Shown one piece after another: positions 29,947 through 57,545 of a stretch of DNA of 64,000 bases (position 1 is its first letter; the number at the start of each line of letters is the position of its first letter). Made by a program: the position numbers and the translations under genes. The notes beneath the pieces were generated by a model. That model saw only the letters and a list, made by a program, of their open reading frames with translations. It did not search any database and was not told the origin of the DNA. The stretch is from Berberis thunbergii. Lineage: Eukaryota > Streptophyta > Magnoliopsida > Ranunculales > Berberidaceae. The stretch lies in the NCBI GenBank assembly GCA_003290165.1, contig QNQO01000671.1, positions 124,001 to 188,000 on the forward strand, written 5' to 3'.

Positions 29947-29949
29947 TGT

Positions 29950-30115
29950 GACTACACCACAAGTCCATTTTTATAACATTTAATTATAGCGTTTTTTACG
30001 CATTTGCTATGAAAAGTCAAGTTGCACTACTGTTGAGTATACAAACGCTATGGCGGGATTATAAAACGCTGAGCGCTCAGCCAAATATTTGAGGTAGCGC
30101 CATTTTTCTTCCCTC
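29950..30115. repeat. Outer element left terminus (L-type end, family 2)
   Basis: The ~150 bp align by eye with the reverse complement of the right end of inner A: shared CATTT(A/G)AT.ATAG, GGCGGGATT.TAAAACG and GGCGCTCA-type blocks. Contains ATAGCG motifs. Confidence 0.75.
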
Positions 30116-30169
30116 CCTTGAACCTAAATTAAGACAAAATTTTCAAGTTTAACATCGAAATCTCTTCTT

Positions 30170-30560
30170 TCATTTCGATTTCGATTCCCCTCTCAACACA
30201 CCCAAATCCCATCTTTCATCTCTCTCTTCGTTTCATTTCTTCAATGGCGACTGAACAAGTTAGAACGAAGCAAGAGATAACTTCCCACTTGTTTCCTTTC
30301 CCTCTGCTTACTATCTAACTGGAGAAGGAGAGGACGAGAGGTTGAGAAATTGCTAGGTTTATGTTAGCAACAGTGAAATTTGGGGCTCTAGTTTGGTCAA
30401 GTGACATGTAGAAGAGAAACAATAATATCTGCTGCACTCGAAACACTCCTAGAAACAGAAGAAGCAGCAGCAGAGAAGGTCTCTGAAGTTCCCCAATCCA
30501 TTGAAGAAGAAACAGAGGTTTCCATTCTACCCTTCGATTCTATTCTGTCTTGAATTATGT
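30170..30560 (+). pseudogene. 5' leader and first exon of an unidentified captured gene
   Basis: After a C/T-rich leader, ATG at 30244 opens MATEQVRTKQEITSHLFPF. A later stretch (about 30410-30520), in another frame, encodes ETIISAALETLLETEEAAAE followed by SEVPQSIEEETE and a possible donor. It looks like the 5' coding end of a plant gene, but I do not recognise it. It is the first fragment after the L-type end and may supply promoter and start codon for the array. Confidence 0.35.
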
Positions 30561-31835
30561 GTTTATGTTTACTTTATAATTGATTCCACATTTTCTCGCA
30601 TTTCATCGAATGTATCATCTTAAATTTTGTCTCATTTTTCATTGTGAATAACTTCATCTCCCATTCAAACAACATATGATTAGCCAATTGTAATTGGAAA
30701 GGTAAATATTGACTTAATTGCCTCCTTGTTCAATTGTGCATCTCTTCCATATATACTGGCCTTTGCGTACCTATTTTTGAAGTTCGATGTAGGGGTAATT
30801 ATATCTACTACGTTTTTGTTATTGCTAATTCCTTCTACGACTGGACTGAGTACTATGACAAAGATTTTATTCATGATATATTTGACAGTAAGGAAGCAGG
30901 TTGGGAATTCCAATTTGCTGGCTGGCATCAAGTATTGTTGTTATGATTCTCTTAGTCTTGAGCATTTTCCTTATTCTTCTTCCCGGAAATGCTATTTGTT
31001 TTGGGACACCATTTTATTAAGCATTCAATTTCAAAGGGTTTTTTTTCAAAGCTATTTCTCTGTTGCTTTTATTGATGAGATGAAAATTTCATTTTCTAAC
31101 TGGCTATTATTATATTTTGTCATTCTGGTTTAATTCTTGAAAATCTAGTTTAAAAAATGTAAGTGCAGAATACATGGATTATTTTCATGATTATGTAGGG
31201 AACAGTAAATATCCATATGACTTAATGATATGAAGTTTCCTTGTTGACTTCAGTTTTTGCAAAGTTGTTATCTAATGGCACATTGTTGTTTCTTGGTCAG
31301 ATGTTAATATAGTCACCACCGTCTATGTATCCTTCCAACAAGTTATGCGATAGGTATGTTGAGTTCTATTGTATCTACAATTATTATGTGTTAAATTAGG
31401 GTGTAAGGATGATATGGGGGTATACGTCTCGTCTCTGATTTAATAATTGCATACTTACAACTTGCCTATGCCTGCGGAAGTCTCGAGTTAACTGGTGCAC
31501 GAAAGCACTGTGATTCCAAGAACCTTCTTAGTGGACTTAAAATGGTAAATGATAGAGCTCAACTTCTTCTAATGTTTTAAGCATTATTGTTTACATATAA
31601 TATTTTGCTATTCTGGGTAATTTGAGGTTTTCTGTTGAATGTAGTAGTAATCTGAGTAGAAACTCGTTTCATTTTCTTGAGATAGGGTATTTTCTATCTC
31701 TGATTTCATCTTTATCCTGTTTATTTATGAAAACTCGTGTCCTGAATTTGACTTGGACTTAAGTTTTTAGTGTTACTCTTGTCATGACATGCTTTTGAAA
31801 TAGGTTTTGCCTTGTGATTGGCACTATGAGATTCA
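30560..31835 (+). other. Intronic or unrecognised DNA in the outer element
   Basis: 30697-30770 (GGAAAGGTAAATATT...GTGCATCTCTTCCATATATA) recurs as a direct repeat at about 32218-32290. An exon-like stretch near 30835-30930 encodes YDWTEYYDKDFIHDIFDSKE, with no family recognised. Confidence 0.4.
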
Positions 31836-32222
31836 GGAAAGGAGATCAAGTCGAGGTACAACGCCAAATGGGATTTACCTTCTTGTTCTTGGCAGCATGA
31901 CACATTGCTTTTGGGAAATGGCCATGCTTATGTCATTAAATATGAGCAGCCAAATGTGGTCAGTAGCACGCCTATGATGGAGAAACTATCTCAGAAACTC
32001 ATTAGGCCTTGCCCTTTTATGAGAGTTGAGCAAAATTGGGCAACTGGAGGCAAGGTCAATGTTTTCAACTATTATTTATGGAAACCGACAATTGTCTCAG
32101 AAGTTATATGATGCGCATCTTTTTATGATTAAGCTCAATGAAATGGCCAAGAAACTGAAAGCCTACAAATCTCAACAGGGTTCCACGATATTGGCATAAT
32201 GAAGAATGGATTGTTATTGGAA
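31836..32222 (+). pseudogene. Captured Agenet/Tudor-like domain fragment
   Basis: Contains KGDQVEV, GNGHAYVIKYEQPN, IRPCPFMRVEQNW, KVNVFNYYLWKPTIVSEV and, after a frame change, VPRYWHNEEWIVIGK. The order (K-G-D-x-V-E-V; IRP-P; W-x-G-x-V-x-VF..W; ..W.IGK) resembles plant Agenet-domain proteins, which are chromatin or RNA binding. It ends at GTAAAT. No ATG or full domain pair is present. Confidence 0.5.
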
Positions 32223-32633
32223 AGGTAAATATTCACTTGATTGCCTAGTTGTTCAATTGTGCATCTCTTCCATATATATGGTTTTTGCATACTTGTTTGA
32301 AGGCATGTTAGGGTGAATTCTTTTGGTATTGTCTTACATACATAATTCTACAGTCATTCACTTTGAATTATTCTAGAAGCCAATAGATCACCAAGTGTGA
32401 TCGCAGCAACAAAAACTGGTGTATGGGAAGTCCAACAAACGCCCACAAGAATGTTGAAGAGAGGGTTAGGCAATCTGTGTTGTCTTGAATGGGATGCTAG
32501 AAGAAGTCAGAAAATGAGAGTAACTAGACAGATGGTGATCACCATGAAAGGGTTCCAATGCCAGAGCGACAACATCATTGCCCAAGAAGCTGCATTCTGT
32601 TACTTCCTCTAATAAAACACTGGGTGGAAAAAT

Positions 32634-33110
32634 ATGTTGACAATGCTTCCCTTAACAACAAAACGGTCCAATATTCAGTTTGATAGAATGTCAGAAAATA
32701 GAAACAGTAATATCGGATGTTCTATTATTGGAAGTCTAAAATCACATTATGCTGAGCCTATCACTAACGTACAGTCCCAGTTGCACTGCAAACAACAGTT
32801 CATGTCAACTTTGGAAACACGTACATTGTCACGTCTAGGTTTAGCTATGGCTTTCCAAGAGATCATGGCTAATGCTTTTACATTGATGATCGATGTCTTT
32901 GGAAATTATGTAATCTAGAAGGTATTTGTACTTTAATAATCCATCAGTTTTGAAATTGATTTTATGTTCATTCTGTTTGTTTCCGCATGGCATAACAATT
33001 GGAGTTCTCCTTCAGTTTTTTGAGCATGGAACAGTGTTGTAGAGAAGGGAATTAGCAAACCAACTGAATGGGCATGTATTGGCGCTCCGCCTTCAAATGT
33101 ATGGACTTTG
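32634..33110 (+). pseudogene. Captured Pumilio (PUF) repeat fragment
   Basis: The 3' part of the first exon encodes AFQEIMANAFTLMIDVFGNY followed by VI and then an AAGGTATTTG donor. The next exon (about 33017-33105) has FFEHG, RRELANQLNGHVLALRLQMY. This is the linker between two PUF repeats of plant Pumilio proteins (family pattern DVFGNYVIQKFFEHG). An in-frame TAG in the second exon and the missing remaining repeats make it a fragment. Functional PUF proteins bind mRNA 3' UTRs with eight repeats. Confidence 0.85.
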
Positions 33111-33395
33111 CTGGAGAAACCTCAAAACAGTTCCAAGATAGCTACAAAGAAGCACTATTTCCGTCAAAAGATGACATGGCTACTAAGGAATATGCATAAT
33201 ATGCACTACCTTACAGTAAAGCTGATGCAAATTCAAAGGTTAGTCCTGTTTTCTGTGAACCCTATGCTCCAAACTTATGATTTGATCAAAATCAGGAGAA
33301 CAAATTCTTAGATACAATGCTAAATTGATTAACACATAATGGTTATTATTAGAGACAATTCTAGCTTTCTTATCCGACATATTTGGTTGAGTGCA

Positions 33396-33760
33396 GGAGA
33401 ACAAATTCTTGAAGTTTCTTGGTTTCATGCGGAATCCTTTGTCATGGGTTATGGAAGCTGCAACAGTTATGGCACTTGTCCTTGCTAATGGTGGAGTGAG
33501 TCTAAAAAACTTGACATGCTTCCATGAGTTCTTGAGCTATTACTTTTTATTTTTCAAACATATGAAACATTGTATGGTGTTGCATCTACTAATGGAAAGT
33601 CTCTTGGTATTATATTTCAGGGCGAAAGTCCTGACTGGCAGAACTTTGTAGGGATCATGTGTCTATTAGTAATCAATTCTACTATTAGTTTTATGAAGAA
33701 AAATAATGTCGGGAATGCTGCAGCAGCACTTATGGCCCGTTTAGCTCCAAAGACAAAGGT
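33396..33760 (+). pseudogene. Captured plasma-membrane H+-ATPase (AHA) fragment, two exons
   Basis: Exon A (33396-33495, after an AG acceptor) encodes [20 protein letters not shown] and [12 protein letters not shown] and ends at GTGAGT. Exon B (about 33620-33760) encodes [20 protein letters not shown] and then [18 protein letters not shown] and ends at GTATGA. These are consecutive N-terminal exons (M1-M2 and start of the A domain) of plant P3A proton pumps. The native intron is kept, so the capture was from genomic DNA. Substitutions such as MKKNN for the usual IEENN show drift. Confidence 0.93.
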
Positions 33761-34189
33761 ATGAGTGCATTTTATTCTTATGGATTTCACTTGTAAACAA
33801 CAATAATTTCATTTGATAAAGCATGAAACTTTTACAAATATTCATGAATTTCTAGATTGCATTTACTATGCTTCGTAAGTTTTAAATCAACGGATTCACT
33901 AGTCAGAGATAAGAAGTTCTAGCAATTCCTCTGAATCCTTAGGGATATGTAATTCATAACAAAATTCGTTTTATTTTCAACGCCTGGGATAATATGATTG
34001 TTTACCATGGGGTGTTTGTTTTTTTGTATGAAATTGCTTGTTTCTAAAAGCTTGGACATATCTGGTTCTCTTGTATTCTTGGTTCAACATAAACTAACAT
34101 ATTTGTTTTTTACCTGATGGAAATACAAAATTGTGTGGGAAACAATCTGTGATTGTTTATTATAAATGTTTTACTTGTCTACTTGTCAC

Positions 34190-34320
34190 CACAACTGCAA
34201 CCTGACTCATCAACAAGGACCTTGTTTCCCATGGTGTTATCACAGAATATATCTACTGGTCCTCCAAGCTCGCTTTTGCAAGTTGCAGTAAAAAATAATC
34301 AACATCTTGTATGTAGCATG
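34190..34320 (+). pseudogene. Captured beta-adaptin appendage fragment
   Basis: [20 protein letters not shown] followed by VKNNQ corresponds to the start of the appendage region of plant AP-1/AP-2 beta-adaptin (family pattern [24 protein letters not shown]). The reading then degenerates. Adaptins are coat-protein adaptors for clathrin vesicles; this piece is too short to function. Confidence 0.7.
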
Positions 34321-34914
34321 TAGGTAATGCACTGGATGGTAGTAATCTTTGGGCTTCTGACGCTGTTAACCCTGGTTTGTCCTTCGTTGTATCCACATTC
34401 ATCTCTTCATTTTCATCAAATGTTTATTGTGGAGACCTTACAGCCATGTTGCATGCTACACTGTCGCTGGCTAATAATTAATTCATACAAACAACATATG
34501 AGAGGCTGAACAGTTTCTCACTTCAATTTTAGTTGTTTTATGATTATATCATTGAATAAATCTTGTGCAGTCTTATACACATTAAGTAGTTTGATAAGGC
34601 CTTTCCTACAAAATATGATCTTCCAACTATATCATATCTTAACTAAGGATTCTTGGATATCCAAGCGAAAACGATTATGGTCTTATTTACCCCTTTGAAT
34701 GGAACAAACACGTACAATATCCATGCTTTACCTGTGTAGTAGCTTTCTAAGATTTGTAGTATCACTATGTACACTGGTATCCATATCCATGTCTTTATTT
34801 TCCGAACCATTTGCATTCTGTTGCAGGAAAACTTAGATTAGAGTTTACAGTTTGTGTGGTGAGGATGGGTATATAGGTGATGATTTGGAGGAGGGTATAG
34901 CATCTGACATGGTA

Positions 34915-35160
34915 AAGCATGTTGTTTTGTTCATAATACATGCTGTGTTGTTCATATTGCAAACATGAGGTTTTCTTCATATTGCAAACATGCTGCTTTG
35001 TTCATAATACATGCTATAACTCCTAATACATGTTGTTTTGTTCATACATGTCCTGCTGCCAGCAGGAAATCTAATACATGCTATTTTGTTCATTCTTAAA
35101 TACATAATACATTTTCTGCTGCCAGCAGGAAATCTAATACATGCTGTTTTGTTTAAGAAC
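34915..35160. repeat. Irregular tandem repeats around CATGCTGTTTTGTTCAT
   Basis: Many copies of TACATGCTGTTTTGTTCATA-type units, plus two copies of a larger unit with CTGCTGCCAGCAGGAAATC (near 35049 and 35114). The latter contains a CTGCTGCCAGCAG palindrome. It directly precedes the WVD2-like exon. Confidence 0.75.
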
Positions 35161-36115
35161 ATGCTGTGAGGTGAAGGAATGCACCACCGAATGTTCAATT
35201 GAAGTGACTGCTCCATATCAAGTTGAGAATGGTCACAAGGAGAAACATGATCTGCTTTGTGTTAAAAGCACAAACATTGATGCTGCAATACCTGAGGAGA
35301 AGAAAGTGAAGCCTGGAGTATCAAAACAAAACAACGATAAGAACTTGAGCACCCCCGTGAAACCTTTATCAAAATCTGCTGTTGGAAATGGTCGATCAAA
35401 TTATATTGTTTCACAGCCATTTGCTTTGGCTACCGAAAAGTGTGCTTCCTCTGGAACTCGACCTACTGGGTTTGAAACTACTCCTGGTGATGTGAATAAG
35501 ACAAATGCTTCCCCACCACCCACTATTGCAAAGAGGTCCCAAGTAACTGAACAATTCTAGCACTCTCTTGGTCGGATAGGTTATCATGTTACATACTGCC
35601 TAGCTATTTGCAGCCTTTGTTAACTTGAGAGTCTTTTTGTTGTTTAATATATGAAAAAAATATGGTTTCTCAATATATGTTGTAGCATTTTATAAAATAC
35701 ATGTTGGAATCCCCTGAAGCTTTTGCTTACTCTTTACAATGCTATTATTAAGACAACATAGCCTAACTACTGGTGTGCTTTGCAAGTCTGATTTGGTTGA
35801 TTGTTTCCTTCATGCTAGATTCTCTTAATCTTGGCATCCTGGAATTTCCTTTGAAAAGCTTGTGGATGTTATTTAGGCTAATGAATAGTTAGTACTATAG
35901 TAAGTGTATTTTATGAACTTATTTCACAAGCTTTTAAAATCAAGATATCAAACTATTATGTTCTTATAAATTGAAAAATTAGGACTTCATTAATGGTTGG
36001 GCATGCATATATTTATTGCAAGAGAGTCCCCCTTCTGTATCAAGGAAGCCACTCCAGACTGAAAACAAGAAGCACTCTGATGAAGAAGATGCAGTTTTAG
36101 TTGCTTCATGGTATC
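35161..36115 (+). pseudogene. Captured WVD2/TPX2-like microtubule-associated protein fragment
   Basis: The main exon (about 35161-35560) encodes ECTTECSIEV, then KPLSKSAVGNGRSNYIVSQP and FALATEKCASSGTRP, typical of plant WAVE-DAMPENED2-like proteins (VPQPFALATEKRAS). A further exon (about 36015-36112) encodes ESPPSVSRKPLQTENKKH and SDEEDA. The C-terminal TPX2 motif that binds microtubules is missing. The upstream start at 35141 runs into repeats, so the N-terminus is not genuine. Confidence 0.88.
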
Positions 36116-36279
36116 CTTTCCCAGAATGATGACCTCAAGCCGTTTTTCCTATTGTTTCTCATTTCTTTATGAAACAATCTTTACATGCATGGAGCACAGC
36201 TCAGAAAATTTAGAATATTACTTATCACATATCCTTGCTAGAGTTCAAAAAGTTTCTAATTTCAGAAATTTCATTTTGT

Positions 36280-37520
36280 TGTATAGGGGAAGAAAATTTG
36301 TCCTTTGTGGGGCACAGTTCAGTTGTTCGTGCATCCACGTTACATGCATGGAACTGCTACTAGGTATTATGGTTTGCAGTTTTGTGAATCTTTTTATGGT
36401 ATTATGTTTTTTTTATTTTAAATATTCTTATGGAAACTATGGAAAAGTGTTTTGCAGCTCTGAAGTAAGTGTATATGCATATGTTGCAGCTCCAGTTAAG
36501 AAAGCTATGGAGGTAATTCTTGGTGTTTATGTAACATGTGTCGCTGACCTGAACCTTTAGCATATACTTTGCTTATATGTTTAATCTCTATAGGTCACAC
36601 ATTACCTCGGAGGAGAAAACTACGTATTTTGGGGTGGTCAGGAAGGTTACCAAACTCTCTTGAACACAGACATGAAAAGAGAGCTTGACCATTTGGTATA
36701 GTCTACAATTTTCTTTTCTTCGAATTATTTTAAATACAATTACAGTCTTTGTTTGCATTTTAGCTGTAACTGTTTTTAGCAGCTTCAGATTGGGACGCTG
36801 CAACAACTACTGCATTCCTACAAAATATGGTTTTGTGGGTGAGTCATTTTTGTTCAAGTTTTTTCCCCTATAAAAGCAGTGTGGTTACAGTGTATGTAAT
36901 GCAGGTTATGTAAGCAGTGTTTAGTAGCAATGTTAATTTAAGTATTATATCTCACATTTCAGTAGACTTTCTCTATTAGCATTGTTATGACACCGTTTTG
37001 TGGTTTTCTACTTGAGGTCATCTTAGAAATATATTTTTATTGGATCACTGCCATGTTTTCCAGCAATAAGTTGCGCTACTTGTCCATTGAGAACTTAACA
37101 TGCTATGTGTTGCAACTTGCAAATATTGATCACTATTGTTTGTGAAATATCAGACCTCTCCACTATGTACTGAACCCTCTCTTCACAAAGACGAGTGAAG
37201 TTCTTATTAACCTTTAGAAAAACACTTACTAGTGCCAAGATTTAAGTGAAAAACAAAAAAAAAGTTCAAATTCTTCAAGTTTTGTTTATATTTCTATTAC
37301 TTTCTGTACAAATGCTCATTGACTAATTTGGCAAGGATTTAATGAATCCTTTATTATGATGCTCTGATTTAATACTTCGTGAGGGAACTAGAAGATGAAG
37401 TGGGACACTTTATATTTAATATAAGCACACATGTCATAGATTTCCTGCTTCTGTTTGTTTTGTAGATGAATTCAAGCTTAATATTGAATGCAACCATGCC
37501 ACCCTGTCAGGTCACAGGTA
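36280..37520 (+). pseudogene. Captured xylose isomerase fragment, four exons
   Basis: Consecutive exons on the plus strand: 36290-36354 (CPLWGTVQLFVHPRYMHGTA); about 36456-36512 (SEVSVYAYVAAPVKKAME); 36594-36697 ([20 protein letters not shown], then [13 protein letters not shown]); 37465-37517 (DEFKLNIECNHATLSGH). These match in order the middle of plant xylose isomerase, including the metal-site region around IECNHATLSGH. Introns are retained. Both ends of the protein are missing. Inner element A sits 31 bases downstream, in the following intron. Confidence 0.92.
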
Positions 37521-37547
37521 TGTTTGTATCCATCTTCATGCTATTAT

Positions 37548-37815
37548 CACTACAAGAAAAATTGTGATCAATAGCGTTTAAAAACCGCTATGGTAGGATA
37601 CCATAGCGGTTTACTAACCGCTATGACAGCCGGCGCTATAATAGACCCAGGGGATATTATAGCGGTTTTAAAACGCTATGGTAAGTTTGGCTTTTATAGC
37701 GTTTCAAAACCGCTATGGTAGTCTCTTCCATAGCGTTTTAAAAACGCTATAGTAGACTCTAAAACCGCTATGGTAGACTTTACCATAGCAAAAACGTTAT
37801 GGTAAGTATACATAG
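37548..37815. repeat. Inner A R-type terminus and subterminal array
   Basis: About a dozen AACCGCTATGGTA / TACCATAGCGGTTT motifs in both orientations, followed by a T-rich run. Adjacent opposite copies form palindromes. Confidence 0.9.
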
Positions 37816-38140
37816 CAATTTTATTTTATTTTTTTTTTTATTTATTTTTTTTTTTTTACTATCAAATGACTTTTATTACATCTTATCATGTATGCATTAG
37901 CCTGAGAACTCGAAATTCATTGTGACAAAGACAAGAAACACCATGTTGATGATCAAGCAAAAGAAAATAAAATGTATTATTTTCACTTCCTTTTGCTAAA
38001 AGAAATGTTGAATGATCTAAACATTTTTGTGATGATGAATGTACATAATGTTTCAAGGGAAAAAAGGGAACGAAAGCAACGACATAATTTTTGTGATGAT
38101 GAATGTACATAATGTACAAACTCTTATTAATCTACACCTG
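37816..38140. other. Non-coding DNA in inner A
   Basis: T-rich tract and AT-rich DNA with a 26-base direct repeat starting TTTTTGTGATGATGAATGTA (near 38024 and 38088). No supported gene. Confidence 0.5.
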
Positions 38141-38144
38141 CAAC

Positions 38145-38227
38145 AACAACAACGACAGCAGAAACAGCAACATCAACAGCAATAGCAACAGGGGCTATCG
38201 ACAGCAACAACAGCAACGATAGCAACG

Positions 38228-38260
<33 letters not shown>

Positions 38261-38285
38261 GCAGCAGCAGATAGCAGCAGCAACA
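38145..38285. repeat. (CAG/CAA)n-type imperfect microsatellite
   Basis: CAACAGCAACAGCAGCAG-type repeats over about 140 bp. On the minus strand they are read as poly-Cys, which is not a protein feature. They abut the last XLG exon. Confidence 0.9.
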
Positions 38286-38289
38286 GGTA

Positions 38290-41200
38290 GCATTTGTAGC
38301 TCACTTCTTCGACTAAATGTAGCCTGAATGGCATCATCCTTCCACAACTCCTCCACTAAAGGGGCATACTCACGAGTAGCAGCTGGGAAAATGGCTTCCA
38401 AATTACCAGACACCATAATTTTGAGAAGCCAATCAGAGAATGCTTTCAACTTTGGGCTGATGGAATAGATAGTTTTGTCATCCCTCTCACCTGAAGTCTC
38501 TGTAATTAACCACATTTTGCATTCAGATTTTATTCTTACCATCATATAAGCAATGTATCAACATCACTAGACTCTTGCTAGACATTGGACTCTGAACATG
38601 TTTGCAATGCCAATATGTAAATTTTAGTTCAAAAGCAAATAGTCACTGCGTTCTTATTTGTGTTCTTGCTTAGTATCTCTAAAAACAATGAATGTTTTAT
38701 AGGTGCCTTACTTCAAAACCTAGTTTGAACATAATTGGTTTCTATTTTTTTTTCTATTAATAATCATTACTGTTTTGCTTCCTTGAAGATTTACACTACA
38801 GGAACTTAAACCTTTTCGTTCTTTTTTCTTTATTTTTTTAAATCCGTGACAGCATAATGCTTAAAAAGTATTTACATGGCCTGCTTCATTATTCTGATTC
38901 TTCAATCTTTGCAACCATCATAAATAAAGAATAAGTTATCATTGCATACGACTAAAGTTTATCAATGTCTAATAGCTATTAAAGAACCATACCTGTAGTA
39001 GCACCTGTTTGATCAAGCAATCGTTCTTTGCCCATTTCGGTCAAACTTTCATCCTCAAACCTTTCACGGCCCTCGAGCAGTATACCAAGATAACGGTATA
39101 CATTAGTTTGGATAACCAACTTGATACCTTGGTGCTCGTTTTCCAAGAAATGATCGATTTTATACAAGATCTTTGTCTGAAATAAACATTTAAATGAATC
39201 AATCCTAAAGTAAAACACAATTATGAATTATTAATTGGTTAAGAACATCCGTGGAGTTGAACTTTGGTCCAGCAAACCGACAGTGCAAGGAACAAAACAT
39301 AATAATGACCAAACAATAGAAATATTGTCAACCTTTTCAGTAGCATTTCAAAGAGATAACAGCATATATCGCCTTCCATTGGAAGTCAACATAAAACAAG
39401 TGAAGGTAGTTTTCTCCAATTAGGTAATACCTGTTTAAAAATTGTGCTAGTCCCAGATCCCTTGAATCCAACCAAAAGAAGCTTCTGAAGTGCTCTTTTG
39501 TCAATGTACTCGGGGAGAGCTTTACCAACTAGATCATTCACTTCTTCCCCAGTAGAATTTGCTCCCTTGGAAGGAACAGGCAACAACAGAATAACACAAG
39601 CCAGCTTTGTCCCAGCCTGAAGAAAATCCGTCATTAAGTAAATCTGCTAAATAGAAAATCAACAAAGAAAAGAAGTAACACATCTTTATGCATAACACAC
39701 CTTGCTCCATAAATTCCCTTTTATGCTCTTCTGTCCCTCTTCCTGGTATGACCCATCCTCATCCAGCCAGAAGTGGGGGTTTCCAGCACATTGGACTCCT
39801 GCCAACTGCAAGATCAAAAGAATAGTTTTTCTTTATATAATTTTTCAATAAAACCATAAACAAACACTAATTGTGTCTCGAAAACAAACCTGAGGCATTG
39901 GTGTTTCTTTGTTGTTTGTGATCTGAAGATTGTTACAGTAACATTTGCTCCAAAGCCAGGCAGTACCAGAAGCTTCTCTTGCAACGTCGACAACCTCAAA
40001 TTTCTGTTTGTCAAACACGAGTTTGTTCCTAGCCTGCCAAATATGTGAGATAACAGCTGCAGCACGAGATAATACAGATCCATTTGGCATCTCCCCTGAC
40101 CTGTCCATACCTAAAATCATTTCTAAAGATTCCCTTTCATTGAGAGTATTGCTAGCATCCCATCGAATTGGAATAGCAGAAAGTGACCAAACTTGAACTA
40201 CAGGTGTGCACTTAAAGAAGAGATGGTCAATTGTCTCAACTTCGGTGCTGTAAAGTGGGCATGTGACGTCAACTGCCATGGTATGACGGTTAAGGTTCCC
40301 ACCCACTGGGATGATTCCATTATAAATTTCGCAAAGGAGCATTTTAACTCCATTCGGAACATTAAGTTTCCAAATGGAGTGGAGAAGGGTGGAATTGTTG
40401 ATGGAAAAAGATGGTCTCTTTGAGTTTAAGGTGCTGGAATAACAAGTTCCATAGGATGATTCGGAACCAACTAGATCATACACTTCTTCTCGAGAAAATT
40501 GTGCTGCCTTGGAAGGAGTAGGCAATGACAAAATAGTACAGACCAGCTTTATCCCAGCCTGAAAAAATCTCTCGTTAGATAGCAAGAAAATGAATCAGAA
40601 AAAATCGCACATCTTCATTTTAAGCTCACCTTGTTCCATATATTCCCTTTTATGTTATTCTGTCCCTCTTCCTCGTACACACCATCCTCGTACACCCATA
40701 AGCGAGTGTCTGCACCACATTGGAGTCCTGCCAACTGCGTGATCAAGAGAATATTGTCTTTAATTGTTTTTCAAACCTTGAATGAGACTAATTCTGTCAC
40801 ATACACAAACCTGTAGCATCCTTAGCTCCACTTTTGTAATCTCCCTGCAATTTATAAAGACCTTTGTGTTACCATTGCTGGCGTCTGGCATGAGAGGACC
40901 TCCGACATTCAGACAAGAACTAATGATATTGCAAGGTCTTTGGCCTTCCTGTTAAAATTTCATTACAATAAGCTACATATCCATATCAAACCAAACTATA
41001 AAAGCATTGTAAAACTAAAGTATGTTAATTGTGTGTATATTCACCTTTCCCCAAAGACCTGAATATTGATCATACCAGTAGTGTCCTGGTTTTAGCTTTG
41101 TCGGCGGCTTCGGGCAACTTTGCAATACATCCAGTTCCAATTGACAAAGTTGTTTCCCGTTCACATAAACATGCTCAGGATGTAATTGATTTGCTTTGCA

Positions 41201-41668: not shown

Positions 41669-41699
41669 TTCTATAGTCTGTCTGAACTACTTTTTCTAC

Positions 41700-42235: not shown

Positions 42236-42243
42236 AGGAACTT

Positions 42244-43265: not shown

Positions 43266-43270
43266 TGGAA

Positions 43271-43358: not shown

Positions 43359-43359
43359 C

Positions 43360-47440: not shown

Positions 47441-47619
47441 ACCTAAGGAAAAAGAAAAGTCGGTTCATGTTACTGTATCATCCCAAAATCAGATAAACGT
47501 AGATAAATTTTGGAAATGGAATTGGTTCATACCTGTGTATCAGATAAAAGTAGATAAATTTTACTTTGTAACAATTTCCAAAGTAGAACAAGAAGCAGCA
47601 AGGAAAGAATATGAATAAT

Positions 47620-48490: not shown

Positions 48491-48510
48491 AAATTAAGCT
48501 AACGAAGATA

Positions 48511-48903: not shown

Positions 48904-49919
48904 TTGGATATCATAAAAGACACAAGATTAGCAAAGTTTCAATGAGCTTAAGTGTTTCTCTTTTCACAGATCTGTTATAGAGGATTGAAAAGCAAAAGAT
49001 GTAACAAAAAAAAAACTACAAGTGTCATTTCACAGTGTTCATCAAAAAGGTAGGGTCCCCTTCAATAGCCAATTTTAATGGACACTTCACTTGAGTAACA
49101 TATCAGAAAGCTAAACAAATAACAAATATTCATGCTTGAGTCATTGTGAAGTAAAGCGTTCAAGAAAAAGTGCTCAAGAAATTTTCAACCGAAGAAGATT
49201 ATGGATGCCTATATGAAATGCTCTAACTAATGAAAGGAAAAAGTCGCATGAAGAGCAGATAGATTTTCACCATTTCAGAGTGTGGTTCCTCTTAAATCTC
49301 TTTCCTCTAAAATGTCGTCAAATATGTTGCTCAACCTTTCTTGATGAAAACACAACTCTCTATGTATGCATACCGTGTTTGAGCGCCAATAACAAGCTAT
49401 AAAACTTTAGCTGTGTACAAATAAGCGATAAAGTTCTTCTGATGAGTATGTTTGGAACAAAACTACAAAAGATAGCCATGAAAAATCATGTAATTAAAAA
49501 AATGACCACATACGCACCTATACGGAATCCAACAAGAGGGATTGGTTCTAACAGTTACTCAATTTTCTCAAGTCTTTGCCTGCAATTTTTATTTATTTTC
49601 TTATGTAAGCCAAGATCAGGATAAATGCAATGCATAACTTTGAAATTGACTTAGAAACACATATCATTACCGGATACACTTGCTAAAGAATGGATCTCTC
49701 ATGAGATAAAATGCCAAGAGCATCTTTCGCCTCTTTACCTATCAACAAGAGATGAGAGCATATGACCATGTGAAGCCAAAGAAACTAACCTCATTTTTCT
49801 CTGAGGTTGAAAGAGGGAAATGTCCATCAGATCTACCATGACCTAACAATTAACAAAGGAAGCAGGCCCATTCAACCACTGAAGCTGCAAGAACAACAGC
49901 ACCATGAGCATAGAAAATC
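48904..49919. other. Non-coding DNA in inner B
   Basis: No recognised coding or repeat structure. Confidence 0.4.
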
Positions 49920-49961
49920 TTAAAGTTCTGATAAGAAAGGATCATTACGTGACCAAATCCA

Positions 49962-50290
49962 TAATAAATAAACACCTTTTATATTACTTGGAGGTTCCAC
50001 TCTCATAGCTTGATGGAGTTGTAGCCTGCTCAACCATGTTGGATCAGATATCAGCCTACGGTTCTCTCCAAATCTGTTCAATGAAGACAATGCCCTTCCT
50101 TCCAGATTCTGTGGGTTATGTCCATAATGATTATGCAAGTAACCAAGCACATGGTGCACACCAGGTTTAGGAAAACCGCCTATTCTATGCTGGGAATCTG
50201 AGGCTTTAGAATCCTCTGGTACATTCAATTTCTCCCCTCCCTGCAAAAGCATCTTGTATCCACTATCTCGCAACAGAGCTAGCCTAACTT
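49962..50290 (-). pseudogene. Captured exon of an unidentified conserved-looking protein
   Basis: A 100-residue open stretch on the minus strand: LLRDSGYKMLLQGGEKLNVP, GFPKPGVHHVLGYLHNHYGH, NPQNLEGRALSSLNRFGENR and PTWLSRLQLHQAMRVEPPSN, then an AAAG/GTGTTT donor. Composition, open frame and donor suggest a real exon of a plant gene, in line with the neighbouring captured exons. I cannot name the family. Confidence 0.55.
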
Positions 50291-50699
50291 AGTACCTGAA
50301 TCAAACCAAAATACCAAGTACTTAAAATTTAAACCAAAAGCACTTCCATTTTCAGTGTGAATCTCATCCATCAACCTTGCATGGAAGTAAACCTAAGAAA
50401 TTGTACCTATATGGCGGCGGTCTAAAACCCTCATATTCATGCTAAAGGGCTTGTTTCTTAATATTCTCCTCGGCTACTGTCTGCAGAAATTGGGGTAGTC
50501 AAAACATTTCAGACTAGCTTGTGGGACATTCATACAATATACATCTGTCAAAATGAAAGAACAATTTTCAATCAATACATACCAACAAGTTTTAAATGCT
50601 ATTCAAACTTACAATACATGGTCCTCCATAATGCCTTCCATTCCCTTATGGAGAGCAAAATTGGCTAATCCTGAATCCTCACAACAGACAGATATAAAA

Positions 50700-50812
50700 C
50701 CATTCATCCCTCCACTGCAAGCTGGTATTCATCTTCAACTCCATCATCTTCAAGCTGGTATTCATCTTCAACTCCATCATCCTCTACCTCACCACTTGAA
50801 TCAACCTTGAAG
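50700..50812 (-). pseudogene. Captured coatomer gamma-subunit fragment, internally duplicated
   Basis: Encodes GEVEDDGVEDEYQL followed directly by EDDGVEDEYQL and then a stop. The family has a single (A/V)E(E/D)DGVEDEYQLEDLE in the appendage region of coatomer gamma (COPI coat). A 33-bp unit (ATTCATCTTCAACTCCATCA on the plus strand) is duplicated in tandem at 50728 and 50761, giving the doubled peptide. Confidence 0.75.
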
Positions 50813-51039
50813 AACACAAATTGATTCAACATCAAAATGATAATACACCAAAATTGATTCAGATATACTACAATCCAGTCAATGAAGTTCTTTATTTCTC
50901 AGATTGACAGATATCTTAAAAGATACATAAAACTTTGTTATTAATTTCTATGAAATATGACTACCGATTTCCATAGCACATAAATATGTAACATGAGACA
51001 TGACTGACAAGCATGAAGAATATTCTATCTGACAAACCT

Positions 51040-51600
51040 TTATCCTACTACTTCCCCATGAATTAAGGTTCTTCTCCTCCCATGTTCCAGCCTACAACAA
51101 AACAAAAGCAGTTGTAATCATAAATCACTGGCAAATGACCAGTCCCATTCTCAATAAAAATATAACAGCCATAGATAGAAAGCATGATTGCCAGCTGTGA
51201 CCAGTGACAGCAAATGACCAGTCCCATCCTCGGCATTTAGACGGCTTCTAAAAACTTAGTCTGGAACTGTACAAAATTATCTCCATTTCTCTAAATAGCT
51301 AAGTCACTAAAAAAATAGTTGAGGCGTGCTTAATTTAAATTTAGCGAAATATAGCATTTTTTCAACAAATTCAAACATCTAGCAGAGGCGAAAGTAAACA
51401 ATTCCAAGTCGAAATACTAACACAACAACACACCATAGATGATTTAGCTTCAAGCTTGAGATAATCTAAGACAATTCATACCTCAGCTGCCAGGTTCTTT
51501 TGGCCTCTCAAGTCATTCATGTACTCCCTTATTGACTCCTTTGCCGCATCAGCGGTTCTTCTAAATTTGGCTTGATTTCAGTTTGTCTGCTCTGTAACAA
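51040..51600 (-). pseudogene. Two unidentified captured exons
   Basis: 51051-51096 on the minus strand encodes AGTWEEKNLNSWGSSRIK, reminiscent of a WEEKN-W motif in Aha1-type Hsp90 co-chaperones. 51480-51570 encodes AKFRRTADAAKESIREYMND then LRGQKNLAAE, bounded by AG/GT-like sites. Both look like real exons, same strand as their neighbours; neither is assigned with confidence. Confidence 0.4.
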
Positions 51601-51605
51601 TAAAA

Positions 51606-52330
51606 GAAATCAGTCCAGTAGGGCGTTGTCTATTGTTTATCTATTAGTAAACAATTCCCACTACAAAATGTCAGTTATGAATGCTAATAGGCAATGGGCC
51701 ACTTACCCCGGGAGTTTGAGGCATGTTCAGATGGATCGGAAAAGGAGCAGAGATTATAGGCCCAATTCAAACTACAAAAAATGCGTCGAAGATGCACAGG
51801 TATAAACTGTATATGGTACCTGGCAGATGTCACTGCGAATGGATTTTTCCCACGAAGGCTGCAGGAGCGGAAATAATGGTTTCTGCATCTTGGCAAACAC
51901 ACTTCCATGCTGAGCACAACCATCATGATCATAAACTGCATCCTCGAGCACATCCTCATTACGCATGTTTGATTGTGTATTCATTTGTTGACAACATATG
52001 TTCATATGCTATTTAGTACAATACACAAGAATAGAAATGGACAACAAACAAATGGATAAATTTTTCAAGTTCATGAGAATCAGACTGTTAGACGAACCTG
52101 CTGAATTGGGCAATCATTCACTTCTTCATCTATATACAAAGATCACAACTTCGGTTAAAATGACATTTACAACAAATAGTTGAAGCAAGTTTGGCAAGTG
52201 AAGTGAACTGACCTGAAATTTCAGCTTCCGGAGTCACTGTATCCAGCTTCTCTGCACCATTAATCCTTCAAAATTTTCGGACTCCATGAAGCTATTTTGA
52301 TGAGTCTGCAGTTATGTCTGATAGTAATGT
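51606..52330. other. Unassigned DNA in inner B
   Basis: Overlapping short ORFs on both strands without family features. Possible further exons of the unidentified genes, not supported. Confidence 0.35.
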
Positions 52331-52334
52331 TATC

Positions 52335-52605
52335 AAACCTGCATGAAAACACAAGTTCACTTCACTAGAGCATACAAAAGTTCTGTTGTGACGTAAAAAC
52401 ACAACTTCTGTTGTGACATTTACATAAAAACATAACTTCACTATCACATAAGTTCACCTGCATAAAAACACAGAAGTTCACTTTTCACTTCACGTCTATA
52501 AAAACACCTACATAAAAACACAGAAATTCACTTCACTTCCATAAAAACACCTGCATAAAAACACACTAGGGCATACAGAGGTTCACTTAAGTTCACCATA
52601 ACAAT
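52335..52605. repeat. Irregular tandem repeat around CATAAAAACACAGAAGTTCAC
   Basis: About eight imperfect units mixing AAGTTCACTTCAC and CCTGCATAAAAACAC over 270 bp. Confidence 0.75.
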
Positions 52606-52609
52606 GTGT

Positions 52610-53400
52610 TTTTTTTCTTTCATTAACAAGAGTTACTAAAAACCATAATAATTTTATATTTTAAATTGATTGCATAGTTGCAAAAAAAAAATTTAAAGAA
52701 AAGAAGTAAAATAAAATTTAATTTACAAGAAAATTTGCTTTCGAATCCGAAATATGGTGTATAGGTCAAATGGTGGAAAGATATGATCATTTATATTGGT
52801 AAACATTGAGGTGGAAAGATTTCTATTACAATGAAAATATGTAAACTCTCAAAAACATGTCAAATGGCATAAATGTTTAAATAGATAGATGGGAAGTTGC
52901 TTAACTGTGTGCAAAGACAAGGGAGGAAAATGAGAACCAGAACAACATGCATGTAGCAATTACATATCTATAGTTAGTGCTAAACTTGAATCAAATATGA
53001 CATACATATACCAATATGAATCAAATTTGACCACCAGCCTATCATACCAATTATGGGTGTCAATGACTGTGTGTATGATATGATATGATTCCTGGTCTCA
53101 CACTGCAAATGAATGTTTTGATTCTAGGAACAAAATTCAAGAGTTGCTGAAAAAAGGAAAAACTCAAGTTTTCAGACTCAACAATGGGAATTGTCAAGGA
53201 TACATTCCAAACGGCCAATGAAATGAGTGTGAATCTTGGTAATGTAAATCACGAGTCCAACAAGGGAGTATTTAAAGGAACCAACATTTGTGTTCAACAC
53301 TAATGTGTAGCTTGTGGCAGTGAATTCCCAGGTGAAGAAAGTCACAAGAAAATGAAAGTTAATGAACCACAATTAGTCCTGCCTAGGGAAACTAAGTTCA
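52610..53400. other. Non-coding AT-rich DNA
   Basis: No recognised feature. Confidence 0.4.
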
Positions 53401-53559
53401 ACAAACCTATTTTTGAAAGACTGAGCATGGGCTTCATTGCTGGCCTAGATTTCATGAAGTCAAATTAGAGCAAAATCAAAGGCAAAAAACCTTAATAAAT
53501 AGGCCTGGAACTACAAAACATCCACCAAAAGGATTAATACTGGGTGTACCTGACTGATT

Positions 53560-54450
53560 TATTTTGCAGGATCCAATGATAGTCCAAAGCAAGCAAGCAT
53601 TATCTATTAAGGATAAACACAAGTTTGTGAAGCCTAAACCAAATGGAGTGTCACTGAGTTGAAATCTCCTACTCCCAGTTCAGCACTGATATGGACTTAC
53701 AGGAGGAATATAAAAAAAAAAATTACTTTATGTGCAGACTGTTTCTAATAAACCAAATCCGAGGTTTATTAGAGATGACATGGAGGAGTACATGGAACTT
53801 GGAAAAATAAAGGAAGATGTCAACACAGGTTTACAAAATGATTTGTTGCTAGATATGCTCATTGACTTGGAAAAACATGGCTACCACATTAGCTAGACAT
53901 TTGCTGCCAAGGAGAATTAAGGAAATGGAGAACATTGCTGCTGGTTCAGATGATTTAGAGATTTGATTGAATGAGAGTGAAGAGGTGACTACTCCACAGT
54001 TTTATTTCACTTCTGCCAGCTTCCGTTATACTTATGAAGAACCAACTCAAGAAATGGTTAAATGTAAAACCACTATTTATCAAAGGGTTTAATGGAAAAC
54101 TTTTAAAACATGGCATTAGTAGACAATGATGCATCAGTCATTATTACTAATACTTCGAAGAAAATAAATAAACAAGATGTTGAGTTAGTGACAACCAGGA
54201 TTACTATCTCTGGATTATTGGAAAGATAAAACGATGGCCAAAAAAATTGTGCCATTAGAAATAATAGTTAGGAGTAAACCATTCAGAGAAAACATTCTTT
54301 GTCATAGATGGTGCACTTAATTTTTTAACTTTATTAGGCAGAGATTGGATTCATGCTAATAGATGTATTTTGTACTCTATGCATTGAAAATTTTTAGTTC
54401 TGATAAGAAAGGAGAAAAAATATTGAGGAAGTACATGCGGATCCTCAACC
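53560..54450 (+). mobile_element. Degenerate Ty3/gypsy fragment (protease region)
   Basis: On the plus strand, 54110-54370 in shifting frames reads ALVDNDASVIITNTSKKINK, ELVTTRITISGLLER, and LLGRDWIHANRCILYSMH. The gypsy aspartic protease region has the pattern ALVD.GAS.N.........F......YN.LLGRDWIHA. Here the catalytic-site DNGAS-like motif is DNDAS. Upstream DNA (53590-53990) looks like the preceding gag-pol linker. Many stops and no LTRs: an old fragment, and opposite in strand to the captured genes of inner B. Confidence 0.75.
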
Positions 54451-55140
54451 ATTTCATATATTCCAATTGTATCGATGCTACTCTATCATGCTAACATGTG
54501 TCCTATTGATATAAGTAACAAATAAAAATGAAAGGGCTTTATGTGAGTGGGATGAAGATCCATTTCTACTTTATCATGCTAACATGATTCGACCATTTGA
54601 AGATGATGAAGAATTATGGGAATGAACCTTGACCCTAATAAAATCAATGAAACCATGCATTTGGTTTTAGACAAATTTATAAAATTTGAATTAAATGCAA
54701 AAATATTACAAAATGATAATATTACCTGGGATACAAAGGGGAATTAAATCCCTTCAAATTTGTTGTTTAGAGCACCCACCACCACCAACAACAAAAGCTG
54801 TGAACCCCACATCCCTCTGTGTTGTGATATGCTCTCATGCACAACTTTTGTGTATGACTTGGTTGTGGATCTGAAAATTGCAACCAGAACATATCAATAT
54901 TCTCAGTGACGGAGTCACAGTTTTTATAATGGGGTGCAGAGTAATGAGTCATAGAGGCCTATGAGCCCATAATTACACCTATTCCTGAAAAAAATACCAC
55001 CAACACCTATTACACCTCTGGTTTGAGCTTCTTCATTTCCTTCAAGAGCTATAATGTTTGTGTACTTACAGAGAAATGGAACCCAAACCAAACCAAGCAA
55101 TAGAGAGACAGAGAAAGGGGAAATAGAGAAGGAGAAGAAG
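54451..55140. other. Non-coding DNA between gypsy remnant and PLPHP copies
   Basis: No supported feature apart from the start of the ~190-bp direct repeat at about 55061, described under the next entry. Confidence 0.4.
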
Positions 55141-55144
55141 AAGA

Positions 55145-55252
55145 CCTGGGGTGCCTTTTCAATTAACTCCTGCACATAGTTTTCGCCAAAACATCGATGC
55201 CCAGCAATATCATCATAGACTTGGCGAATGAGGGAGACTGGCTTGGTCTTCT
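55145..55252 (-). pseudogene. Second, partial copy of the PLP-homeostasis protein exon
   Basis: Encodes KTKPVSLIRQVYDDIAGHRC and FGENYVQELIEKAPQV on the minus strand, the same exon as at 55775-56000 with a 3-bp insertion (DDIAGH versus DAGH). With the adjoining intron it forms a diverged direct repeat (about 55061-55250 and 55697-55880, offset 630-635 bp). Confidence 0.88.
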
Positions 55253-55696
55253 AATCACAAAAACAAACAACCCAAACAAGATCAAATCACTTTCATACAA
55301 AAAAAAAACCCATTAAGCTTTAACAACTAAACAAGAACCCCAAAAAACCAAGGGTACAGATTGATCAATTTTACAAATTGAAATATACCCAAATTCTAAT
55401 TTTAAACAAAAAGCAATGCACAAAGCATGAAAACAAACATTCAGTGGAGAAAGAATAAGAGAGAGAGAGAGACAAGGACAAAACCTTTAAGCTTTCCACC
55501 CCTCTTCAACAACTTCTCCAAAATCTGAAACAAATAACAACAATTAGAACAAAAATATTACACCCAAATAGTCCTAAAAAAATTAAAACTTGAAAATAAA
55601 TAAAGAGAGAAGATCTAACCTTCTTTCCAGCACTGGGTTTGCATCCCTTCCAACATTCCAACTAACCCATTCGATCAAATCACCCAATTTGCAACT

Positions 55697-56000
55697 TACA
55701 GAAAAATGGAACCCAAACCTAACCAAGCAATAGAGAGACAGAGAAAGGGGTAATAGAGAAGGAGAAGAAGAAGACCTGGGGTGCCTTTTCAATGAACTCC
55801 TGTACATAGTTTTCACCAAAACATCGATGCCCAGCATCATAGACTTGGCGAATGAGGGAGACTGGCTTGGTCTTATTCACAGTCACCACTCTGACTTGAT
55901 CGGCTCTTCGCCCAGATTTCTCCGCCGCTTGTTGCACCCTTTGCATCACTGAACGCAGTGCTGTTACAGCTGTTCCTTCCAAGGCGAGTGCTGCAGCCAT
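55697..56000 (-). pseudogene. Captured first exon of PLP-homeostasis protein (YggS/PROSC family)
   Basis: ATG at 56000-55998 opens MAAALALEGTAVTALRSVMQ, then RVQQAAEKSGRRADQVRVVT, VNKTKPVSLIRQVYDAGHRC and FGENYVQEFIEKAPQV. This matches the N-terminus of plant YggS/PROSC proteins, which bind pyridoxal phosphate; the PLP lysine is in the family's V(S/N)KTKP motif and is present. Upstream (56000-56120) is a C/T-rich leader on this strand. It is the first captured exon after the right end, so the element may have taken this gene's promoter and start codon. Confidence 0.92.
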
Positions 56001-56284
56001 GGCTGGTGATGACTGTTGTTGTTTGGTCTCTGTTTCTTCTGACTGCTTGGGTTGCTCGACTTCTCCCTCTCTCTTTCCTTCTCCTTCTCCTTCTCATTCT
56101 CTCTTTCCCTCTCCTTGAAATTTTAGGGTTTTTTTCACAAAGGGTTGAAAAGGGGGAGATGGAGCGTGAGATGGAGAAGCAAAGGGTTGAGAAAAAGGGG
56201 AGATGGAGCGGGAACGCGGGAAGAAAATTTTTTTCCCAAAATTTCGCCCGCGAGCCTTCGACCTATTTCTCCACAGGTCCACGT

Positions 56285-56499
56285 GCACCTTTGCAACGGT
56301 TTTAAGCTGTGGGTCACTATAGCCACGGTTTTTAGCCGTGGCAAACACACCAACGGTTTAGAACCGCGGCCAAGCCCTTTTTTAACCACGGTTTTAAGCC
56401 GTTGGGCACTATAGCCACGGTTTTTAGCCGTGGCAAACACACCAACGGCTTAGAACCGTGGCCACCCCTGTGTAGCTAATCAGCCCTTTTGGTGTAGTG
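56285..56499. repeat. Inner B right terminus and subterminal array
   Basis: Includes a roughly 110-bp unit repeated twice (CACTATAGCCACGGTTTTTA at about 56312 and 56408). Ends TTTTGGTGTAGTG. Very similar in layout to 6180-6320. Confidence 0.92.
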
Positions 56500-56512
56500 A
56501 TAGACCAGGTTT
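56500..56512 (+). pseudogene. Captured SYP4-type syntaxin fragment, end of the interrupted exon
   Basis: Directly after inner B the sequence ATAGACCAG then GTTTGT continues the syntaxin exon (Ile-Asp-Gln before a donor), exactly where SYP4 genes read LVIDQ before an intron. The ATA is the target duplication. Confidence 0.85.
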
Positions 56513-57214
56513 GTATCTGAGTCTTTCATACTAGTCTACATGCTTCTACACAAAACCAGTTTTGCTAACTGATCTTTGTGTGGAACAATGACTTCAAACA
56601 TTCAGTGTCTGATATGGAGTTAGCAGTCAGAACTAATCTTACTGGGAGAAGGATGTCAATGCAGTTTATCTATGAAAACAAAGCTAGTGCCTTACGTGCC
56701 ATAAAAGATATGGAGAATGACAACTTAAGTAAGGCATTTCAAGACATTTTCTAAGATATAGTTATCTGTAGAATGGAAAGGGAGACTGGGAGAGCCATCG
56801 GGTTTGCTGCTAGCATGGTCAATGTCAACGTTGCAACTGATCCAAGGACGAGCCTGGTGAATGAATCGGCACTGCAACAACATGTTTTGCCCCAAGCTTC
56901 AACAAATCTCAGTCATATTTTCTTTCATGCAGAGCACTTCTTTTCTAAGTTCAACTCTATATCAGTTCTAATTTGACAAAGAGAGCAGTTGATACGTAGA
57001 CATGGCAATCGAAGAGGATGTAGAAAACAACAGTGTACATTTCTAATCATAGAATTGGTATGACTGAAATAAATGTAGTCTGATCTTTATTATTTGATAG
57101 ATTTTGTGACTCGATGTAATACATTATCTTATTAATTACATTACTTTGCCTCAATTCATGGAAATGTTTAAGTTTGGCACATTTAGATTTTAATTTTCTA
57201 GAAATAAAACTTAT
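56513..57214 (+). other. Remaining interior of the outer element
   Basis: An exon-like stretch at about 56610-56755 encodes LAVRTNLTGRRMSMQFIYEN and KASALRAIKDMEND; the ORF 56773-56976 starts MERETGRAIGFAASMVNVNV. Neither is recognised. The rest is AT-rich. Confidence 0.4.
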
Positions 57215-57545
57215 AAAATGTTATAAAAGTCATTTGATAGCACTTGATGAGTGCTATAGAAAAAAAGGGCCTTGAGAAACGCTATAGAAACTAATAAAAT
57301 AACATTTGTTAAATATTACGTGAGGGAAGACAATAGCATTTCAGAAACGTTATGATAGAGTATACGATAGCGTTTCAGAAACGCTATGGTAGAGTCTACA
57401 AGGCCAACTTACTATAGCGTTCATAAAACACTATAATAGACCTTGGGTCTATTATAGATTTGGCAGACACAACATTTTCTAAAACGCTATGGTATCCTAC
57501 CATAGTGTTTTTGAAACGCTATTAATGGGCATTTTTCTTGTAGTG
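57215..57545. repeat. Outer element right terminus (R-type end) and subterminal array
   Basis: GAAACGCTATGGTA / ATAGCGTTT motifs in both orientations, ending GGGCATTTTTCTTGTAGTG at 57545. In reverse complement it begins CACTACAAGAAAAAT like inner A's left end. Confidence 0.88.

Follow-up and report, generated by a model that had tools for sequence, protein, structure and literature searches.

Why should fragments of many unrelated host genes, gathered into nested transposable elements, all lie on one strand within each element? The question is raised by a 64,000-nucleotide stretch of the Berberis thunbergii genome (contig QNQO01000671.1, positions 124,001 to 188,000; hereafter the window, numbered from its first letter), in which one CACTA element, here called outer, contains two more, A and B. 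An initial annotation had described the three as nested Pack-CACTA elements without transposase that together hold pieces of at least 15 host genes, all on the plus strand in outer and all on the minus strand in A and in B. We find that the two opposite-strand patterns of outer and A collapse into one rule, in which cargo runs from one kind of end, X, to the other, Y. What is new is a strict orientation rule across two CACTA families.

Cargo direction in the nested elements

Termini and target site duplications (TSDs) confirm that the three elements are nested. CACTA termini are present at both ends of A, at both ends of B and at the right end of outer; at the left terminus of outer the first CA of CACTA is gone. 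All three are flanked by 3-bp TSDs (TAT/TAT for A, ATA/ATA for B and TGA/TGA for outer, the last beside the damaged end), and the cargo of outer lies in three pieces (29952-37547, 45386-45881 and 56503-57545). The claim that transposase is missing also held, as a six-frame Pfam search at E≤0.02 returned no transposase family in A, B or outer. Pack-MULEs have long terminal inverted repeats and a 9-bp TSD, and Helitrons lack TSDs and end in TC...CTRR; the 3-bp TSDs and CACTA termini rule out the former identity, and the presence of TSDs and CACTA ends rules out the latter. In kind, outer, A and B are ordinary Pack-CACTA elements. A 99.6% copy of the nested locus, with A inserted at the identical place, lies on contig G000:C8704 (locus L039) and is either an allele or a recent duplicate.

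The ends of these elements supply a direction that does not depend on strand. One type of end, X, stands at the left of outer and at the right of A (X1/X2, 82% over 156 bp), and a second, Y, at the right of outer and at the left of A (Y1/Y2, 79% over 205 bp); X and Y ends share short matches only. The two elements thus belong to one family and lie in opposite orientations, so that the plus-strand cargo of outer and the minus-strand cargo of A each lead from X to Y. The key point absent from the initial annotation is this inverted placement of A relative to its sibling, outer. Subterminal motifs number 0-3 at X and 7-21 at Y in eight elements. B belongs to a second CACTA family, and its cargo runs from its right end to its left end. 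We use "sense" for these directions throughout.

For the search within the window, open reading frames (ORFs) of both strands were run against PDB sequences, and Pfam was searched in all six frames. The plus-strand ORFs of outer were searched over 3557 of 4142 residues, with no composition filter for this element. Neither the minus-strand ORFs of outer nor the plus-strand ORFs of A and B matched a PDB sequence at E≤1, and no plus-strand Pfam family was found in the window elements. Searched jointly, the minus frames of all three elements gave zf-RVT, Cation_ATPase_C, G-alpha, CRM1_repeat, sucrose synthase, PP2C, SWIB and Pex16. Because a rescan of the minus frames of outer alone returned SWIB only, the other seven families must lie in A or B, where they are sense. 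The SWIB match (about 57070-57193, in the last piece of outer; 16.3 bits against a cut-off of 25) is the only antisense match in the window and is at chance level. The one-strand-per-element claim thus stands for every fragment with tool support, with the weak SWIB match (E 0.0083) as the sole antisense entry.

Orientation among relatives in the genome

The genome searched comprises 2.24 Gb in 11,732 contigs. With up to 3 mismatches allowed, the pattern of the X end occurs at 349 + 334 places (683; control 0). The right-end pattern of B occurs at 4131 + 4308 places (8,439; control 0), which makes its CACTA family very large. For each pattern the listing covered 100 places, and 40 of 401 candidates from a DNA search with the X end were scored. 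The choice of loci was not random. L039-L048 were the best X-end matches, L049 and L050 had unlike heads, L051 and L052 had lower identity, L053 and L054 came from pairing the X and Y lists, and L055-L057 were early one-mismatch X ends, some others being passed over. L058 and L059, the first two B-end places, were covered for 5 kb each from the right end and by Pfam only. PDB queries for A, B and L048-L057 were ORFs of at least 30 amino acids that passed a strand-blind composition filter. Both ends were located in L048 (TSD CCA), L051 (AAT), L052, L053 and L054 (TTT in each), and in L055, which has differing flanks (CTT and TTC).

In the nine elements with both ends, three in the window and six elsewhere, 20 of 20 host fragments at E≤0.001 were sense and none was antisense. 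Those in the window are H+-ATPase and xylose isomerase in outer, Ca2+-ATPase and G-alpha in A, and PLPHP, a sucrose-phosphate-synthase-like (SPS-like) fragment and CRM1 in B. The relatives contribute GAPDH and PUF (L048), Slu7 and DUF7651 (L051), V_ATPase_I (L052), pectinesterase, E1-E2 ATPase, DIOX_N and ARF_AD (L053), 6PF2K and HSP90 (L054), and ABCC and a citrate-lyase-like fragment (L055). G-alpha and CRM1 were assigned to A and B by eye and would be sense in either element, and DUF7651 is taken as a host fragment without proof. Leaving out L055, with its mismatched TSD, leaves eight elements, in which 18 of 18 fragments are sense. If fragments were independent and both orientations equally likely, 20 of 20 would have probability 2^-20, with independence imperfect as modules are shared; counted per element, the eight X-Y elements give 2^-8. 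The direction of B is defined by its own cargo, and the test for that family is provided by L058 and L059. All host exons recognized at E≤0.001 in complete elements point away from X, or from the right end of B, toward the opposite end.

Several matches were left out of this count. The E-value excluded PP2C (0.0031), Pumilio in outer (0.0094), SWIB (0.0083; antisense, in outer), Pex16 (0.015), CRAL_TRIO (0.0045), ABC_tran (0.0019), Cullin (0.0059), AAA (0.0071), AAA_16 (0.016) and cNMP (0.02). The Pfam sucrose synthase match (0.0029) was dropped, and the SPS-like fragment was counted once through its PDB match. The retroelement domains zf-RVT and RVT_2 were excluded, as were the unplaced Peptidase_M17 match (4.2e-6) and everything in loci without a located far end (L049; L050, with malic enzyme and PDR; L056-L059). 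L039 was dropped, and L040-L047, with the same cargo as outer, were not treated as independent.

The searches on which the count draws were lopsided in the same way. Sense ORFs of L048-L052 matched 304 PDB sequences at E≤1, of which the best 60 were led by GAPDH (5.7e-19); a PDR-type transporter (2e-11) and malic enzyme (7.8e-10) were among the matches listed. The antisense ORFs of these loci gave one match, at E 0.39. For L053-L057, sense ORFs matched 233 PDB sequences at E≤0.5, with ABCC (9.4e-38) and pectinesterase (2.7e-33) among the best 60 and H+-ATPase (7.9e-21), an ATP-citrate-lyase-like protein (6.4e-18) and HSP90-5 (1.5e-16) among the matches listed; the antisense ORFs gave one, at E 0.099. 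Unfiltered six-frame Pfam searches at E≤0.02 found 11 sense families, RVT_2 included, and one antisense family, DUF4371 in L049, among L048-L052; in L053-L057 they found 10 sense families and no antisense one. In the second family, the 5 kb covered in each of L058 and L059 held, in six frames at E≤0.02, six sense families (among them O-FucT, ABC2_membrane and TIP49) and not one antisense. The located host matches of the loci without a far end (L050 and L056-L059) are likewise sense.

Could the procedure itself favor one strand, through the X-to-Y polarity or the ORF filter? The filters were of our own making and only conserved domains are detectable, which leaves some room for such an artifact. 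We nevertheless consider it highly improbable, since polarity in the X-Y family was set from the end sequences and not from the cargo, the filters are blind to strand, and the unfiltered Pfam searches agree. The initial annotation had named several clear antisense host exons as the observation that would speak against it; no antisense host fragment at E≤0.001 occurs in the nine complete elements. Non-random orientation holds beyond the window, the pattern is stronger than had been claimed, and we are confident that the bias is real.

Shared cargo bears on how many independent events the rule reflects. Eight loci, L040-L047, carry the array of outer itself at about 94%, with deletions in some. 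The array has therefore moved and been amplified as a whole. These loci form four pairs, 98.6-99.7% alike within each pair, that are perhaps alleles. L048-L057 have in common with outer only the head and some modules. A PDR module occurs in L048, L050, L051, L052 and L056, and a Pumilio module in outer and L048, always plus/plus; where elements share modules, there is no inversion.

Two further observations concern such sharing. PDR-type ABC transporter exons are present in elements of both families (the X-Y loci and L059), as if the PDR gene were a frequent donor or modules crossed between families. A piece of L055 adjoining its X end (41-327) recurs plus/plus inside L053 at 6417-6700, counted from the X end, as if by the fusion or exchange expected between elements.

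The orientation might accordingly have been fixed by chance in a few ancestors, with modules later spreading in register by recombination or head-to-tail fusion. The PDR and Pumilio modules and the L055 piece do recur, and fusion between neighboring Pack-CACTA elements has been described, as have local insertions that share an orientation (PMC13317346, PMC8903248). We find this history doubtful, given that the 20 counted fragments are nearly all from different genes, that H+-ATPase was taken twice through different exons, that segments of L050-L057 common to other loci had been removed before the PDB searches, and that the second CACTA family follows the same rule.

Heads and cargo of the window elements

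The elements and fragments are listed in Table 1. Of the at least 15 host genes that had been named, nine have tool support, Pumilio and PP2C weakly. The other six have no direct match: the Agenet-like, WVD2-like and SYP4 fragments are visible by eye only, beta-adaptin has DNA support from L053, TOPLESS was recognized by eye, and coatomer gamma was not found.

Table 1. Elements, X head and host gene fragments in the window
Feature	Position	Strand	Evidence and remarks
Copia long terminal repeat (LTR) retrotransposon, host of the outer CACTA insertion	27007-59250	+	LTRs 27007-27306 and 58951-59250, 96%
Outer CACTA element	29952-57545	+	X end left, Y end right; TSD TGA 29949-29951, 57546-57548
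X head of outer	29952-30250	+	Subterminal region, GC-rich block GGCGGGATTATAAAACGCTGAGCGCTC, pyrimidine-rich leader, ATG at about 30244
Pumilio-repeat fragment (outer)	32847-32920	+, sense	PDB E 0.0094 (weak); related piece in L048, PUF 1.9e-4
Plasma-membrane H+-ATPase, two exons and the intron between (outer)	33398-33759	+, sense	PDB E 3e-25
Beta-adaptin-like fragment (outer)	34189-34313	+, sense	By eye; 91% DNA identity, plus/plus, to L053
WVD2-like fragment (outer)	35148-35557	+	Name from the initial annotation; open frame; without tool confirmation
Xylose isomerase, consecutive exons with introns (outer)	36287-37518	+, sense	PDB E 6e-20; splice junctions present
Inner element A	37548-45382	-	Family of outer, inverted: Y left, X right; TSD TAT 37545-37547, 45383-45385
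XLG (extra-large G-alpha) exons, partly duplicated (A)	38198-41686	-, sense X to Y	G-alpha Pfam 1.6e-6; placed in A by eye
PP2C fragment (A)	42041-42363	-, sense X to Y	Pfam 0.0031 (weak); placed by eye
Plasma-membrane Ca2+-ATPase C-terminal fragment (A)	43254-43424	-, sense X to Y	PDB E 1.6e-12; Pfam 9.5e-11
SYP4-like syntaxin exons (outer)	45428-45881	+	By eye; insertion of B cuts the last exon
Inner element B	45882-56499	-	Second CACTA family; TSD ATA 45879-45881, 56500-56502
TOPLESS-like exons, far end of B	46660-47420	-	By eye; probably including the last exon
Sucrose-phosphate-synthase-like fragment (glycosyltransferase; B)	48502-48927	-, sense in B	PDB E 3.7e-8; Pfam (sucrose synthase) 0.0029
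PLPHP first exon with ATG, adjoining right end of B	55722-56093	-	E 1e-8, residues 8-66 of YggS

A head at the X end is common to elements whose cargo differs. Outer and L048-L052, with different cargo, have the first 350-745 bp at X in common; A, L053, L054, L056 and L057 have mainly the first 130-350 bp in common with other members, and L054 and L056 share an X head of 640 bp. About 100-165 bp in from X, a variable block like GGGCGGGATTTTAAAACGCTGA-GGCGCTC-CC-AAATATT is found in 11 of 12 sequences; L055, whose X part is just about 45 bp, is without the GC-rich block. Also conserved at X ends (about 30050-30110 in the window; L048-L057) is a GGCGGGA block followed by a GC-rich stretch. We take it to resemble an E2F site, and it could be a candidate cell-cycle promoter of the element.

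In the second family, the head common to B and L059 contains the PLPHP first exon and its ATG. Judged by eye, B is laid out as a gene would be, opening with a first exon (PLPHP) and closing with what is seemingly the last exon of TOPLESS. A second partial copy of PLPHP lies at 54927-55250, with an exon repeat between 55064-55206 and 55694-55836; the counterpart in the shared head of L059 is at 354-789. CRM1_repeat (exportin-1; Pfam 6.6e-6 on the minus frames) was assigned to B by eye. Plus-strand ORFs at 53.1-54.7 kb in B were considered as a host exon and rejected; by eye they are a decayed gypsy-like polyprotein, antisense to the cargo of B, and they gave no match in Pfam, in PDB or in one homologue search. 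A further retroelement remnant, zf-RVT (Pfam 1.1e-11; 39848-40594, minus), lies in the same sense within the XLG exons of A, where it was placed by eye, and adjoins the partial duplication of those exons.

If the chimeric proteins were useful, selection for their coding function could in principle account for sense cargo, and nine of the ten captured exon stretches of outer are indeed without a stop. We compared these stretches, some of them named by eye only, among nine copies (outer and the eight related loci, about five lineages). Variable sites fall at codon positions 1, 2 and 3 in the numbers 60, 52 and 47 (p 0.44), and exons show no lower variability (11.4%) than other parts (9.6%), so purifying selection on chimeric proteins is not supported. 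With stops also present within several pieces, we regard coding selection as a very unlikely cause.

Possible causes of the rule and known systems

Two families, each with unlike ends, carry arrays of host exons with their introns kept. The explanation we prefer, with confidence evenly balanced, is that arrays are transcribed from the X end and that antisense captures are purged at the RNA level or never made. X would be the promoter end, from which the array would be transcribed as one long pre-mRNA; in En/Spm, the promoter end is the one with the shorter subterminal region. Pieces may be added through template switching with microhomology, in repair or in aberrant transposition, and further pieces through recombination between related elements. 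Sense pieces would be spliced or tolerated, and antisense pieces would be lost through antisense or double-stranded RNA against essential genes, through silencing or through transcript truncation. Selection would then act on RNA orientation and not on a chimeric protein. The suggestion of the initial annotation that chimeric transcripts running through the array cause the sense orientation is plausible and agrees with soybean Tgm-Express1.

Module borders between elements are abrupt, with a few bases in common at some, and the PDR module extends from a few bp past one 5' splice site to about 12 bp past the next. Several observations weigh against RNA-level purging along a transcribed array. 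Some joins fall within exons, which also rules out a restriction of joins to introns. Splice dinucleotides, at junctions chosen by eye, are variable in 2 of 40 cases where about 4 would be expected (p 0.19); after amplification there is no sign of selection at the protein level and no clear sign of selection on splicing. The strongest antisense match anywhere, DUF4371 (5.6e-22; two frames at one place), lies behind the X end of L049. No Y end was located for this locus, and the match may belong to a nested transposon or fall outside the element; DUF4371 is linked to hAT-like transposons. Two known elements, discussed below, also run counter to this explanation: transcripts of Tgm-Express1 start at the host promoter, with no internal start inferred (PMC1947982), and the PPR fragment of grapevine Cactavine-5, according to the available part of its description, is opposite to the transposase (PMC2528002).

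Alternatively, capture may be intrinsically directional, the copying machinery adding pieces only in the sense of element and donor transcription, for example by template switching between transcribed units, which would make later selection unnecessary. A transcribed gene might, for instance, serve to fill a gap in a transcribed element, the two sense strands being aligned by RNA-DNA hybrids or nascent transcripts. The near-total lack of antisense pieces is easier to obtain from such a mechanism than from a leaky filter, the captured genes look widely expressed, and protein constraint is not seen. Yet introns are kept, so mature mRNA is not the template, some joins lie within exons, and a CACTA precedent was not found in the literature searched; on balance we think directional capture rather unlikely. 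If it were true, the elements would be growing, gene-like exon trains headed by a promoter and a first exon. The candidate causes are RNA-level purging, directional capture and spread from a few ancestral captures.

The nearest known system is Tgm-Express1, of the soybean wp allele. In the portion of the paper available, five cassette exons are spliced into one chimeric RNA with GT-AG introns (PMC1947982), and all five must therefore have one orientation. Like the window elements, it belongs to the CACTA type and has captured several host fragments, introns included; unlike them, it is a single element, and its transcripts begin at the promoter of a host gene (PMC1947982). The word "orientation" is absent from the text of that paper, and Tgm-Express1 is a partial precedent for one-orientation arrays. 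L054 carries, at about 3.55-3.63 kb, a piece of 6-phosphofructo-2-kinase, a gene that Tgm-Express1 also captured.

Pack-CACTA and other Pack-TYPE elements of Arabidopsis and other plants are similarly non-autonomous CACTA elements with captured coding DNA, and fusion of neighbors has been proposed in the accessible literature as a route of capture. They differ in that the available text of PMC8903248 sets the orientation of non-autonomous elements arbitrarily, as not easily defined, whereas here the unlike ends define it; no sense rule for Pack-TYPE cargo is reported in the portions of the literature examined. The Tpn1 family of Japanese morning glory, as presented in the accessible part of PMC5105172, comprises 339 CACTA elements averaging 7 kb, with internal parts replaced by host genic sequence and with chimeric transcripts; cargo orientation is not reported in that part. 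Cactavine-5 is again a CACTA element with captured host sequence and differs in its opposite PPR piece (PMC2528002, from the part available), so the sense rule is not universal in CACTA elements. A 2026 review of gene capture (PMC13317346) has no word in its text beginning with "orientation" or "sense", and a sense-only rule for CACTA cargo was not found in the literature searched, which included the accessible parts of PMC2773423, PMC8978399, PMC3288121, PMC4289320 and PMC1852403.

Outside CACTA elements, maize Helitrons resemble these loci in carrying arrays of unrelated host gene fragments. They transpose by a rolling circle, without CACTA ends or TSDs, and their cargo reportedly has a sense bias.

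A strict orientation rule narrows the mechanisms by which DNA transposons may capture genes. Here the rule is tied to two distinguishable ends, in two families for which 683 and 8,439 ends can be detected in a single genome, and it could reveal how new genes are built by transposons. Arrays of this kind resemble multi-exon genes, a likeness that matters for gene annotation and for the question of whether transposons evade silencing through it.

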